Source: Pseudomonadota bacterium
GTDB lineage: Bacteria; Pseudomonadota; Alphaproteobacteria; Rhizobiales; MH13
NCBI GenBank assembly: GCA_039024915.1
Contig: JBCCPK010000004.1
Location: 248,001 to 312,000, forward strand
Direction of reading: 5' to 3'
DNA length: 64,000 nucleotides
Part shown: positions 43,383 through 62,340 of the stretch, one piece after another
Layout of the letters: each line of letters begins with the position of its first letter
How positions within the stretch are numbered: position 1 is the first letter of the stretch
Made by a program: the position numbers and the translations under genes
Notes under the pieces: model-generated
Seen by the model: the letters and a program-made list of their open reading frames with translations, nothing else
The model's database searches: none
What the model was told of the DNA's origin: nothing

Positions 43383-44431
43383 GCGGGCTCCGCTTGCTCG
43401 GTCGTATCATCAAGCCCGGCGATGGCGCGGGCAAAGCTGTCCGGGTCGAAGGCTTCGAGATCGTCAACCGCCTCCCCGACTCCGATCAGGTGCACGGGGA
43501 TTTGGTGCTTCTTGGCGATGGAGACAAGGATGCCGCCTTTTGCCGTCCCGTCGAGCTTGGTCATGACGAGACCGGTGACGCCAGCGGTCTTGCTGAAGAC
43601 TTCAACCTGCTGCAGCGCGTTCTGGCCCGTCGTTGCGTCGAGCGTCAGGATGACGTCGTGGGGGGCGTCGGGGGCCAGCTTCTTGATGACGCGCACGACT
43701 TTTTCCAACTCCGCCATCAGTTCCGCGCGGTTCTGCAGCCTGCCCGCCGTATCGATCAAAAGAACGTCGACATCCTCGTGCCGCGCTCGCTCTAGCGCCT
43801 CATAGGCAAGACTGGCGGCGTCCGAGCCTTGCGGCTTGGTGACGACCGGCGCGCCGGTGCGCTCCCCCCAGATTGCCAGTTGCTCGATTGCGGCCGCGCG
43901 GAACGTGTCGCCGGCGGCGAGCATCGGCTTCATACCCAGCGCGGTGATCTTGGAGGCAAGCTTGCCGATCGTTGTGGTTTTACCCGCGCCGTTGACGCCG
44001 ACCATCAGGATGACGTGCGGCTTGCGGGCGGGCGCGACCTTGAGGGGGACGGCGACCGGCTCCAGCACCTTGGCGACCTCGGATGCGAGCACGGTCTTGA
44101 TCTCGTCTTCAGAGACTTCCTTCCCGAAGCGCTCATCCTCGAGCCGTGTGGTGATGGCGACCGCCGTGTCGACGCCCAGATCCGCCTGGATCAGCACGTC
44201 TTCAAGGTCTTCGAGCGCCTCGGCGTCCAGCTTGCGCTTGGTGACGACGGATACGACGCTGTCGGTCAGGGAGGACGCCGACTTCTTGAGGCCGGAGGTC
44301 AGGCGCGAAAACCAGCCTTTCTTTTCCGGTTCGGGCGCCGCTTCGGGCTGCTTCTCGGGGATAATCGAGACGAAGTGCAGATCGTCGGTCACAGAGAGGT
44401 TGGTTTGGGGTGCGCCTGGCTGATCGCTCAT
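43379..44431 (-). CDS. ftsY: Signal recognition particle receptor FtsY
   Basis: 350 residues. N-terminal acidic A-domain remnant, then the SRP GTPase NG domain: [64 protein letters not shown], and the C-terminal [23 protein letters not shown]. The usual alphaproteobacterial short A domain fits. Overlaps mtaB upstream (ATGA) and ispZ downstream, so the four genes dapF-mtaB-ftsY-ispZ form one coupled unit. Ffh, its partner, is at 54 kb. Confidence 0.96.
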
Positions 44432-45753
44432 GCTGCGCGCGCGTCCTCGTTCGCACGTTCGCCGGTCAGGCGCTGGCCCTCGTGTCCGGTGATCGTCACA
44501 TCGACGATCGCGCCGCTCGCCGGGCCATTGCCGGAGACGGGGAAGGCGACCTCGGTGTAGGCCGGAATGCGCCCGCGGGCGATGCCGTCGGCCACGCGCT
44601 CGACGAGGACCGGTTGGGTCGTACCATGCTGCGCCTCGAGGTGCGTTCGCAAAGCTAAGCGGCCCTTGGCGCGCAGGCGTTCGGCGCGTTGTTTGACGGT
44701 CGTGCGATCAAGCTGCGGCATGCGCGCGGCGGGCGTTCCCTCGCGCGGTGAAAACGGGAAGACGTGCAGGAAGGTCAGCCCGCAGGCGTCGACAAGGGCG
44801 AGCGTGTTGTCGAACATTGCCTCGGTTTCGGTGGGGAAGCCGGCGATGATGTCGGCCCCGAAGACGAGGTCCGGCCTCGCGGCGCGCAGATCGGTGCAGA
44901 AGCGGATCGCATCCTCGCGCAAATGGCGGCGCTTCATCCGCTTGAGGATCATGTTGTCGCCGTTCTGCAAACTCAGATGCAGGTGGGGCATGAGACGCTG
45001 CTCGGATGTGATGGCCTCGATGAGCGCGGGGTCGGCCTCGATGGAATCGATCGACGACAGCCGCAGCCTTTCAAGGTCCGGCACGTGCCTGAGGATCTGC
45101 TGCACAAGGTCGCCGAGCTTCGGCGCGCCGGGCAGGTCCGGGCCGTAGCTCGTCAGATCGACGCCCGTCAGAACCACTTCGCTATGCCCATCGCCGACCA
45201 GACGCTTGATCTGTTTGACGGCGAAGCCCATCGGCACCGAGCGGGCGTTGCCGCGTCCGTAAGGAATGATGCAGAAGGTGCAGCGATGGTCGCAGCCGTT
45301 TTGCACTTCGACGAACGCGCGGGTGCGTTCGGCATAGGCACCGATCATTTGAGGCGCGTTCTGTTTTACGCGCATGATGTCGGTCACATGAACTTTTGTC
45401 GCGACAACTTCGCCGTTTGTCGCGACAGAACCGGCCTTTGTCGCGACAAAACCCGCCCATATGGACGGGCTTGATTTTGCTTCGTTTCCGAGCACCAGGT
45501 CAACTTCATCCATCGCGCCGAACGTCCCCGGCTCGACCTGTGCGGCGCAACCCGTCACGACGAGCTTGGCGTTGGGGTTCGACCTGCGCGCCTTGCGGAT
45601 GGTCTGTCGCGCCTGCCGGACCGCTTCGCTGGTCACCGCGCAGGTGTTGACGATGATCGTATCGCGGTGACCTGCCGCCTGCGCGGCCTGGCGCATCTGT
45701 TCGGATTCGACCGTGTTGAGGCGGCAGCCCAGCGTGATGACGTCAACGCTCAT
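44428..45753 (-). CDS. mtaB: tRNA (t6A37) methylthiotransferase MtaB
   Basis: 441 residues. N-terminal UPF0004 Cys residues (VITLGCRLNTVESE, NTCAVTSEA, GCAAQVEPG), radical SAM motif GCDHRCTFCIIPYGRGN, and C-terminal TRAM domain. It converts t6A to ms2t6A in tRNA. Between VLGNEAK and TDIMRVK, where the family has a variable linker, the protein reads FVATKAGSVATNGEVVATK; this is encoded by three palindromic DNA repeats (see repeat entry). ATGA overlaps on both sides. Confidence 0.93.
   Translation of the reverse strand: MSVDVITLGCRLNTVESEQMRQAAQAAGHRDTIIVNTCAVTSEAVRQARQTIRKARRSNPNAKLVVTGCAAQVEPGTFGAMDEVDLVLGNEAKSSPSIWAGFVATKAGSVATNGEVVATKVHVTDIMRVKQNAPQMIGAYAERTRAFVEVQNGCDHRCTFCIIPYGRGNARSVPMGFAVKQIKRLVGDGHSEVVLTGVDLTSYGPDLPGAPKLGDLVQQILRHVPDLERLRLSSIDSIEADPALIEAITSEQRLMPHLHLSLQNGDNMILKRMKRRHLREDAIRFCTDLRAARPDLVFGADIIAGFPTETEAMFDNTLALVDACGLTFLHVFPFSPREGTPAARMPQLDRTTVKQRAERLRAKGRLALRTHLEAQHGTTQPVLVERVADGIARGRIPAYTEVAFPVSGNGPASGAIVDVTITGHEGQRLTGERANEDARAA
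45396..45469. repeat. Three palindromic repeats at 21-bp period inside mtaB
   Basis: TGTCGCGACA occurs at 45397, 45418 and 45439, each flanked by T and A runs (TTTGTCGCGACAA, second copy with G). An imperfect palindrome CCCGCCCATATGGACGGG follows at 45452-45469. The period of 7 codons keeps the frame. Confidence 0.85.
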
Positions 45754-51180: not shown

Positions 51181-51705
51181 TCAGGCCGGCTCGGCGACCA
51201 CGTTTGCGAGGTTGGATAAGCCACGCTCGTAGATCGGGCCCAACATGCCATCCATGAACAGCCCAAACACCCGTCCGATCGGATTGAGGCCGAACTCACT
51301 TTCAACGGACCAGACAATCTGTGTCCCGTCTGCGTGGGCGTTTAGTGTGAAGGTCTGCACGGGCTGGCCCATGGCACCAAGGTCGATCAGCATTTCAACT
51401 TCGGTGTTCTCCTCAAGGCGCGTGATCGTCTGCGTGCCTTCCCCTTCTTTACCCTTGAACGCGAAGGCCGCACCAATTCCGGCCTCTGGACCCATCGGCG
51501 TGATTGCGAGATTGGGATCGGTGTCTCGGTAAGGGTTGAAGGTCTGGAAGCCTTGCGTGCTTGCCAGCAGCGCATAGATGTCCGAGGGGTCTGCGTCGAC
51601 GATTGCCGTGCGCTCGACGGTTTTGCTGCTTGGCAGTGCAAAAGGTGCGATGGCTGCAAGGGCGATAAGGCTGGCCGCGATGGCTGCGATGGTCGTGAAG
51701 GTCAT
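51181..51705 (-). CDS. SRPBCC (START-like) family protein with N-terminal anchor
   Basis: 174 residues. N-terminal hydrophobic segment (TIAAIAASLIALAAIAPFAL), then an SRPBCC/polyketide cyclase fold (VERTAIVDADPSDIYALLASTQGFQTFNPYRDTDPNLAITPMGPEAGIGAAFAF ... VWSVESEFGLNPIGRVFGLFMDGMLGPIYERGLSNLANVV). AGGAGT precedes the ATG. First gene of the YciI-sigma unit; ligand unknown. Confidence 0.82.
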   Translation of the reverse strand: MTFTTIAAIAASLIALAAIAPFALPSSKTVERTAIVDADPSDIYALLASTQGFQTFNPYRDTDPNLAITPMGPEAGIGAAFAFKGKEGEGTQTITRLEENTEVEMLIDLGAMGQPVQTFTLNAHADGTQIVWSVESEFGLNPIGRVFGLFMDGMLGPIYERGLSNLANVVAEPA

Positions 51706-51866
51706 GGCTTTTACTCCTAGCTGTGTTTGGCCTGAGGGGCCTTTTCGATCGTGAAAGCGTGTGTTGGTTCCCCCGCGCTTTCACAGCCATGACGAATGAG
51801 GCAGCTGCCAATCGACAGGTCCCTGAACTTTTTTTGTTGTGTCGGAGATTTTTTTCCGAAGACCGT

Positions 51867-51907
51867 CTTGGGGCGTGTTTCTTGGGGCGTGTTTCTTGGG
51901 GCGTGTT
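51867..51907. repeat. 14-bp tandem repeat, about 2.9 copies
   Basis: CTTGGGGCGTGTTT at 51867 and 51881, and a third copy truncated by one base from 51895. It lies upstream of the SRPBCC operon promoter region. Confidence 0.85.
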
Positions 51908-59178: not shown

Positions 59179-59718
59179 TCAGCGTCTCGACAGCGCCATG
59201 TGCTGCAACAGGATGATCGTTTTCGCGTCGACGATCTCGCCGCTCATAACCATGTTCATCGCGTCATCGAATCGCAGGTGAAGCACCTCGATGTCTTCAC
59301 CTTCATCCAAGGCCCCTCCACCCTCACCGGCACGCTTAGCGCGGTCATAGTTTCCAACGAATAGGGCGAGCCGCTCGGTGACCGAGCCGGGGCTCATGAA
59401 GCTGTCGAACACGCATTCGAGTGCGCCGATGCGGTAGCCGGTCTCTTCGAACAGCTCGGTGCGCATGTGCGCGGCCGGATCGTCGCCTTCCATCTTGCCT
59501 GCCGGTACCTCGATCAGGTCGCCAGTATGGCCATTCAGCAAAGCTGGCAGCCGAAACTGTTTGATGAGGAGCACCGTATCGCCGGCCGGGTCGTGCAGGA
59601 GTGCAGCGACGCCATTGCCGCGATCGTAAGCTTCGCGAACCTGCAGCTGCCAGTTACCGTCATGCCGCAAGTAGTTGAACTCATACCGCGTCAGCCGGCC
59701 CCAATTGTCGGCAAGCAA
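59179..59718 (-). CDS. NUDIX hydrolase (NudK/AdpP-like), 5' end shifted by a tandem duplication
   Basis: 179 residues from an internal TTG (59718). NUDIX box IEVPAGKMEGDDPAAHMRTELFEETGYRIG, SFMSPGSVTERLALFVG; close to the GDP-mannose/ADP-ribose pyrophosphatase group. The family usually begins about 12 residues earlier, and reading upstream gives RYQPVAQTLLADNW in frame but no start codon before a stop. Removing one copy of a 16-bp duplication at 59734-59765 would bring the GTG at 59773 into frame and yield 192 residues. So it is either a recent frameshift mutant or uses TTG. Confidence 0.72.
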   Translation of the reverse strand: MLADNWGRLTRYEFNYLRHDGNWQLQVREAYDRGNGVAALLHDPAGDTVLLIKQFRLPALLNGHTGDLIEVPAGKMEGDDPAAHMRTELFEETGYRIGALECVFDSFMSPGSVTERLALFVGNYDRAKRAGEGGGALDEGEDIEVLHLRFDDAMNMVMSGEIVDAKTIILLQHMALSRR

Positions 59719-59733
59719 CGTTTGCGCGACCGG

Positions 59734-59765
59734 CTGATAGCGGGGATGGCTGATAGCGGGGATGG
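59734..59765. repeat. 16-bp perfect tandem duplication at the NUDIX gene start
   Basis: CTGATAGCGGGGATGG occurs twice in direct succession (59734-59749 and 59750-59765). Sixteen bases is not a multiple of three, so one copy shifts the frame. Confidence 0.95.
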
Positions 59766-59785
59766 CTTGGCACCTACGCCTTCAA

Positions 59786-60088
59786 TCAGCAGGAGACGAT
59801 GCGGAACGTCCCATCGCCGTTCGAAATGGCGCATTCGTCGCGCGTCGCATGACGGGCGTAAAGCGCGCCTGCGGTTGCGCCAGCGGCGCCAGCGACAATA
59901 ACCCAGCCAGTGCTTGCACCGAATGCAGCGGCGGTCAGTGCACCCAGTCCGCCCCCGACAACGCCGCCAGCCAGAGTGTTTTGGTCAAGTCGGCTCATCG
60001 ATTGGCAGCCTGCCGTGGCGAGCGCGCCGGCAACAACCAGTGTGGCGATCACAGGCTTACGGTTCCGTTGGCGAAGGGTGAGGGCCAT
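59786..60088 (-). CDS. Glycine-zipper lipoprotein
   Basis: 100 residues from ATG 60088 (AAGGAAA upstream). Lipobox in VATLVVAGALATAGCQSMSRLD type signal: lipidated Cys follows ATAG. A Gly-rich zipper (TLAGGVVGGGLGALTAAAFGASTGWVIVAGAAGATAGALYA) spans the hydrophobic middle. Outer-membrane-associated small lipoproteins of this type are common; role unknown. Confidence 0.83.
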   Translation of the reverse strand: MALTLRQRNRKPVIATLVVAGALATAGCQSMSRLDQNTLAGGVVGGGLGALTAAAFGASTGWVIVAGAAGATAGALYARHATRDECAISNGDGTFRIVSC

Positions 60089-60162: not shown

Positions 60163-62340
60163 CTATTTCTTACCACCACCGGGAACATTTGGAGGGGTTG
60201 GGGATGCAGCATTTATATCGCGAACTGACAACATGGCCGGAGCGTGACCGACGCTTGAAAAAGTGCCCAACCAGACCTGATAGGACCCTCTTTCTGCTGC
60301 TGACAGGGTAACAAGCGGATGAAACTCACCACCTGAATCATCGTCGCAGGAGTAACTGCCTGACGGCGCACGCACCACAAGCGTGGTGTCTTCGGATGAG
60401 CGCACAGTCACTTCGACATCCAGCCCGCCTTCGCTGACATCAACGGTGAAGTCTGCCGCACGGGATACGTAGCCGGGGCAGCCAGTGGGTGCAAAGTCCG
60501 AGGCGAGAAAGGTGCCTCCGGCAAGCAAGTCGAAATCCTGACGTGTGGCGCCTGCTGCCACCGTCATCTGTGTCACCGCATCGGGCGGCAGGTCTTTTTG
60601 GTCGACCAGTTCAGTGACAGCAATGGTGGCGTTCGGGCGCCCACCGTCTTGACTGAAAGTGCCAACGAAAACCTCATAGTCTCCTGACGATGGGACGCTC
60701 ATAGCCACAGACGGGTTCAAGCCATCAAAATCGTCGTTGCAGCGGATCGAGCCATCAGGCAATCGGACCGCCATTGTGGTGTCAGCGTCCGAGACGACGT
60801 AGATGCGGAGGGGCCAGTCGCCGGCATTATAGCTGAGAACGAAATTGGGATCCCTTGCGATAAAACCGACGCAGGTTTCATCGAGCGCCGAAGCATCCAT
60901 GGACCCGCCAACTTGAAGATCCGTTGTAAACGGATCGTCTTCAAAGCCTGCAGTGAGTGTGGTGCGTACCGCGGCTTGGCTGGGGTTCGAGCCTTTGCTG
61001 CCGGCTTCCGTGATGTTCAACGTCGCGTCAGGAAAGTCGCCAGCTTCAAATGTGCCAACCCAGATCGCATAGGCGCCCGGCACCCCATCAGCAAGCGTGA
61101 TGGCGGGGTTGAGGCCTTCGGTGTCGTCGTTGCAAAAGACCGTGCCATCAGGTGCGACGATCGCCATCGTTGTATCGCTTTCAGACCGGGCGGAAATGCG
61201 CACGCCCGCTGGCGCGTCGAGCCGCGCGACGTAGTCGGGTGCCTCCGCAATGAACCCGGCGCAATCGCTGCCCAGCTCAAACGCTTCGAAATCACCGCCT
61301 GCTTGTAGGCTGATACTATGCTCACCGAAACCGGCGTTCAGGGTGATTGAACCGAAGGCGGGTTCGATGCTCGCCCTGGCGTTGCCGAACGTACCGGGTA
61401 TGTCTGCCCCTCCATCGCCAGAGAATGCGGTCACGGTCGCGTTTGGATAAAAATCGTCGACGATTGGCTCAAAGGTCCCGACAAATACCGCGTAGTCACC
61501 TGCTTGTGCACCGGCGATGCGCAGCCCTGGATTGAGATCGACATTGTCGTCGTTGCAGTAGGTCAGGCCATCGGGGCCGACCACAACCAGCGTTGTGTCC
61601 GTTTCGGAGACAACATCGATCTGGAGGACGCCTCCAACATGGCCAATAACCGTATCGGGAACGTCGGCGACAAAACCGGCACAATCGACGTTTTGGATCA
61701 CCGCCTCGACTGGTCCGCCCGCTTGCAGGTCGAGCGACGCGGGTTCGGCGCCGATGAGATCGAGACGCCCGAATGTCGGCTCCGCGCCAGCGTTGAACGG
61801 GAGGTCAGTTGCCACATCTGGCGCAGGCACGGCTGGAGCGATTGTGTCCGAGCCTGCCACCTCTCGCACAATAATGTCGGCGTCGGGATATGTGTTGTTT
61901 ACGATGGGTGCAAAGGTACCCACCCAGATCGCGGTGAAGCCGAAGGCGTTGCCGCTAATGGTGACCTGGGGATTGACCTCGTCAAAATCGTCATTGCACA
62001 GGAACTCGCCGGAGGGATCCTGGACGAGAATGGTCGTATCTTCTTGTGAGTTTGCTGCGATCTCCAGCTCTCCAGTGCCAAGATACTCGATCAGGTAATC
62101 AGGTGCTTCAGCGATGAAGCCGTTGCAGCCGGGGCCTGCAGACGCGGCATCGAATTCGCCGCCCGCCTGAATGGTCAGAACATGTTCACCAAAGCCTTGC
62201 TCGAGTTGCGAATCTCCAAAAGTTGGCGCTAGCTCGGCGTCTTGAGCCTGTGTTGGTGCGATTGCTGCTGCAAGTACCGCCCCTGCGGCTACCCCCGTGC
62301 GTAACCTCTTGATGGTGCGGATGGACTGTAACGACGGCAT
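60163..62340 (-). CDS. Exported protein of five tandem PPC-like beta domains
   Basis: 725 residues. Signal peptide at 16-32 (GVAAGAVLAAAIAPTQAQ). Five repeats of about 120 residues (about 38-160, 187-306, 327-445, 460-577, 590-707). Each has Cys-x-Gly-(Phe/Tyr), a S-x-x-DTT motif, (C)-N/D-D-D after a Gly turn, and ends Tyr-x-(Ile/Val)-(Trp/Phe)-(Val/Leu)-GTF. The paired Cys suggest one disulfide per domain, and the NDD/DDD clusters suggest calcium. The layout resembles bacterial pre-peptidase C-terminal (PPC) domains but no peptidase domain is attached. Function unknown; surface or periplasmic binding is likely. Confidence 0.8.
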   Translation of the reverse strand: MPSLQSIRTIKRLRTGVAAGAVLAAAIAPTQAQDAELAPTFGDSQLEQGFGEHVLTIQAGGEFDAASAGPGCNGFIAEAPDYLIEYLGTGELEIAANSQEDTTILVQDPSGEFLCNDDFDEVNPQVTISGNAFGFTAIWVGTFAPIVNNTYPDADIIVREVAGSDTIAPAVPAPDVATDLPFNAGAEPTFGRLDLIGAEPASLDLQAGGPVEAVIQNVDCAGFVADVPDTVIGHVGGVLQIDVVSETDTTLVVVGPDGLTYCNDDNVDLNPGLRIAGAQAGDYAVFVGTFEPIVDDFYPNATVTAFSGDGGADIPGTFGNARASIEPAFGSITLNAGFGEHSISLQAGGDFEAFELGSDCAGFIAEAPDYVARLDAPAGVRISARSESDTTMAIVAPDGTVFCNDDTEGLNPAITLADGVPGAYAIWVGTFEAGDFPDATLNITEAGSKGSNPSQAAVRTTLTAGFEDDPFTTDLQVGGSMDASALDETCVGFIARDPNFVLSYNAGDWPLRIYVVSDADTTMAVRLPDGSIRCNDDFDGLNPSVAMSVPSSGDYEVFVGTFSQDGGRPNATIAVTELVDQKDLPPDAVTQMTVAAGATRQDFDLLAGGTFLASDFAPTGCPGYVSRAADFTVDVSEGGLDVEVTVRSSEDTTLVVRAPSGSYSCDDDSGGEFHPLVTLSAAERGSYQVWLGTFSSVGHAPAMLSVRDINAASPTPPNVPGGGKK

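Follow-up and report, generated by a model that had tools for sequence, protein, structure and literature searches.

The closest described relative of the protein discussed here is E. coli NudK, a GDP-mannose pyrophosphatase (PDB 3o52, 3o6z, 1viu), which is the best solved-structure match and aligns over the whole domain with an E value of 2e-41. Short direct repeats of the AGCC-12 bp-AGCC kind are a common slippage substrate for tandem duplication. Tandem-repeat copy number has been described as phase-variable in promoters of Mycobacterium tuberculosis (PMC12817950), and CC[C/U]-[C/U] motifs near start codons are known shift-prone sites (PMC6335274). An open-access search of the literature on bacterial short-duplication spectra returned nothing specific. 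The locus described below lies in a stretch of 64,000 nucleotides, referred to in its entirety as the window, from an alphaproteobacterial draft genome of 3.9 Mb in 35 contigs. A perfect 16-bp tandem duplication is found there near the start of a nudK-like gene, and the likely explanation is a recent slippage-type duplication that breaks the gene and would leave a null or strongly reduced allele.

Duplication and reading frames at the gene start

Two adjacent and identical copies of AGCCATCCCCGCTATC are present on the minus strand, the first at 59752-59767 (sequence inspection and TRF) and the second at 59736-59751 (TRF), followed by AGCC at 59735-59732. The perfect direct duplication reported in the initial annotation is thus confirmed, and the maximal 16-periodic run is 36 bp long (59767-59732, minus strand; TRF score 72, 100% match). 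Read along the minus strand, a GTG at 59773-59771 is followed by CCA, by AGCCATCCCCGCTATC twice and then by AGCCGGTC; the array begins 3 bases past the GTG and the duplication falls in the first dozen codons of the nudK-like gene. The unit was not found elsewhere in the 3.9-Mb genome. In three first-order Markov simulations of the genome's composition (452 kb each), perfect tandem pairs never had a period above 11, so the 16-bp duplication is not a product of chance. RNA folding at the repeat is no stabler than that of shuffled sequences (z -0.5), and a regulatory hairpin is not claimed here.

The GTG (59771-59773, minus strand) is the inferred native start codon. It lies 12 nt past the upstream stop with an AGG (59781-59779) 5 nt ahead of it, as fits its earlier description as a well-placed start, and congeners start at the equivalent codon. 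As assembled, it opens a frame of only 30 codons (59681-59773, minus strand) that encodes VPSHPRYQPSPLSAGRANVACRQLGPADAV and ends at TGA 59683-59681. The initial annotation had proposed that removal of one copy would bring the GTG into frame and give 192 residues, close to the length of E. coli NudK; frame computation returned exactly 192 codons, against 191 for NudK chains. Apart from this break the gene is intact, with 179 codons of NudK/YffH-type NUDIX hydrolase sequence at 59179-59718 on the minus strand. On that strand no stop interrupts the NUDIX frame up to 59781, and no ATG, GTG or TTG was found between its upstream stop and a TTG at 59716-59718, the first canonical start in this frame. 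Translation as written would therefore need an internal TTG or fail, as had been annotated. Further canonical starts at 59670, 59574, 59541 and 59493 all lie inside the NUDIX domain. An ATC start in the NUDIX frame was set aside as non-canonical; ATC start codons are generally very weak.

Strand slippage is the probable origin of the duplication, with a pair of AGCC tetranucleotides as the sites, as the inferred single-copy sequence holds AGCC-N12-AGCC. With the nudK-like frame shifted by this apparently recent event, ribosomes starting at the native GTG would terminate after 30 codons, and the NUDIX domain would be made only through weak initiation at TTG 59718 or rare frameshifting. From the two-copy allele, no function or a strongly reduced one would be expected. 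The annotation has been corrected here, since automatic gene calling would begin a 179-residue protein at the TTG and mask the likely frameshift.

A rescue of the two-copy allele through +1 ribosomal frameshifting at an in-frame CCC-C, with an output responsive to the tRNA m1G37 made by TrmD, is extremely unlikely. The CCC-C forms codon 5 of the GTG frame, a +1 shift there gives a 197-residue protein, and approximately 0.8 kb separates the 3' end of the NUDIX gene from trmD. The CCC-C occurs in the one-copy reading too, and beyond the shift-prone motif and the frame arithmetic nothing favors such a rescue.

Protein family, predicted fold and the TTG start

By sequence, the NUDIX gene is a member of the YffH/AdpP-type family (TIGR00052, 124.3 bits against a cut-off of 79.55) and its product passes the PF00293 cut-off (33.4 against 21.1), and the allele is broken as assembled. 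The score against the NudK equivalog NF011585 falls below its cut-off (154.7 against 234 bits); the protein is described here as NudK-like only, since such a score does not fix substrate specificity. A fold model with a mean pLDDT of 92.7, built from 34 sequences of the window and the loci, places the first beta strand at residues 5-14 of SHPRYQPVAQTLLADNW, in which the TTG is residue 12. The LADNW motif, previously taken as the start of the fold, is indeed conserved, but the modelled strand begins about seven residues earlier. TTG 59718 lies inside predicted strand 1, and the assembled gene does not provide a complete N-terminal strand from a proper start; initiation at the TTG would truncate the protein and probably impair it.

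The duplication could instead sit within a leader, with the gene of this lineage naturally starting at TTG 59718. TTG is among the legal start codons, the frame downstream of it is intact, and E. coli NudK aligns locally from about this position onward; however, no Shine-Dalgarno match precedes the TTG, a TTG-started form would drop 7 of the 10 residues of strand 1 in the model, and homology reaches at least eight codons upstream of the TTG in alphaproteobacterial relatives. The residues RYQPVAQT ahead of the TTG align with RFRPVSET of the congener G002, and [FY]RP[IV] is found at the equivalent place in several other alphaproteobacterial relatives. The residues before the TTG match those of relatives, so this stretch was coding and the true start lies at or near the GTG. 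A natural TTG start is accordingly considered very improbable, and the broken GTG frame is retained as the preferred reading. A genome search at E 0.001 returned only one match and no second homologue of the enzyme. If the allele is real, the strain is probably without its only NudK-like hydrolase.

Comparison with congeners and age of the break

The genus comparison covered four genomes including the host's own, one per species and with approximately 63% protein identity; one congener is the metagenome-assembled genome 'Devosiaceae bacterium MH13'. The NUDIX gene is present in the congeners G001 and G002, where it adjoins the same lipoprotein-like gene near trmD-rplS. It starts with GTG in G001 (VKETEFFRPIEQL) and with ATG in G002 (MSDQSRFRPVSET), in each case exactly 13 codons ahead of LxxxW, and the one-copy reading of the window (VPSHPRYQPVAQT) likewise starts 13 codons ahead of LxxxW. 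Removal of one copy thus restores the start position of the family, in agreement with the interpretation first given to the locus. The 16-bp repeat is absent from G001 and G002, which are both too diverged to display the exact one-copy junction, and the single-copy state of the window lineage is inferred rather than directly observed. Relatives that share both copies along with a conserved start further downstream, the refuting observation named in the initial annotation, were not found in these two syntenic genomes.

No stops or further indels are found in the 179 codons. The window protein keeps 50 of the 51 columns that are invariant among 17 relatives, and its identity to the congeners (63-64%) equals that between the congeners themselves (62.6%). 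With the gene otherwise conserved and intact, the break is either recent or not real. Long-standing pseudogene decay was rejected in view of this conservation.

The upstream gene (59786-60088, minus strand) encodes a small glycine-rich lipoprotein-like protein, with a glycine-zipper match below cut-off, and is likewise the neighbor of the NUDIX gene in both congeners. The gap between its stop and the NUDIX start is 12 nt in the window (59774-59785), as compared to 83 nt in G001 (L104 10387-10469) and 66 nt in G002 (L105 5927-5992). A strong terminator-like hairpin occurs in the 83-nt gap of G001, whereas none was found at the same place in the window, and the NUDIX gene may be co-transcribed with the upstream gene in the window lineage. 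Given the shorter intergenic region, more than one change has affected the 5' end in this lineage, and this counts against the best explanation. Further upstream, at 60163-62340 in the window, a secreted-type protein of 725 residues contains several repeated modules (around DTT..V..P.G...CNDD) and a match to the Pfam PPC domain; in congeners, too, a gene similar to it precedes the lipoprotein-like gene.

Other repeats and the origin of the duplication

A survey of tandem arrays covered 852 kb of the host genome, sampled by stretches, and gave 13 perfect arrays with a period of at least 10. The other arrays with a period above 10 that is not a multiple of three are an intergenic 14-bp triplet and a 50-bp pair, for which the sole overlapping open reading frame is a putative frame of 103 codons; some 10-bp pairs overlap candidate open reading frames. 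The 14-bp unit (TCTTGGGGCGTGTT) occurs in perfect triplicate at 51866-51907 of the window, upstream of a minus-strand gene at 51181-51705. No comparable frame-breaking duplication in a recognised gene was found elsewhere in the 852 kb. The single case gives no sign of a systematic duplication artefact, though it could itself be an isolated error.

A separate group of short repeats is formed by the palindrome TTTGTCGCGACAAA, which is clustered at a spacing of approximately 21-22 bp (window 45395-45450; L103 6293-6350; L084 16585; L092 3602; L129 3941). All three sites in the window fall within the gene of an MtaB-like methylthiotransferase (44428-45753, minus strand), where they code for VAT[KN]-type repeats in frame. 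Exact palindromes number eight in the host genome; three congeners have none. The half-site TTGTCGCGAC outnumbers its reversed control in both the host genome (81 against 30) and G001 (41 against 17), and many 21-bp pairs of it occur in G001 too. These palindromes may form a family of small dispersed repeats or else mark a binding site.

An assembly or consensus error, in which the chromosome is single-copy and the gene intact, is ranked second to recent mutation and is considered unlikely. In its favor are the draft state of the genome and the apparently full constraint on the remainder of the gene, as expected if it were unbroken. However, ordinary reads are longer than the 36-bp array, and recognised genes in the 852 kb of the same assembly hold no other frame-breaking duplication of such size. 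Short-read assemblers tend to collapse short repeats, not to create them. Much less probable still is reversible slipped-strand variation, in which the population would switch between a one-copy on state and a two-copy off state. Slippage is able to remove a copy from perfect direct repeats, but the rate expected for a pair of 16-bp copies is low, the congeners do not carry the repeat, and a housekeeping sugar-nucleotide hydrolase is atypical as a phase-variable gene. The phase-variable repeats of M. tuberculosis also have units longer than the 16 bp of the window.

Recent mutation is ranked first. Compared to E. coli NudK, the window gene has the same length with one copy, whereas its reading frame is broken near the start. 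With slippage tandem duplications as a general class, from which nothing sets the window case apart, it shares perfect adjacent copies, a 4-bp junction repeat and a single locus, and the duplication looks like an ordinary frameshifting mutation rather than a new mechanism.
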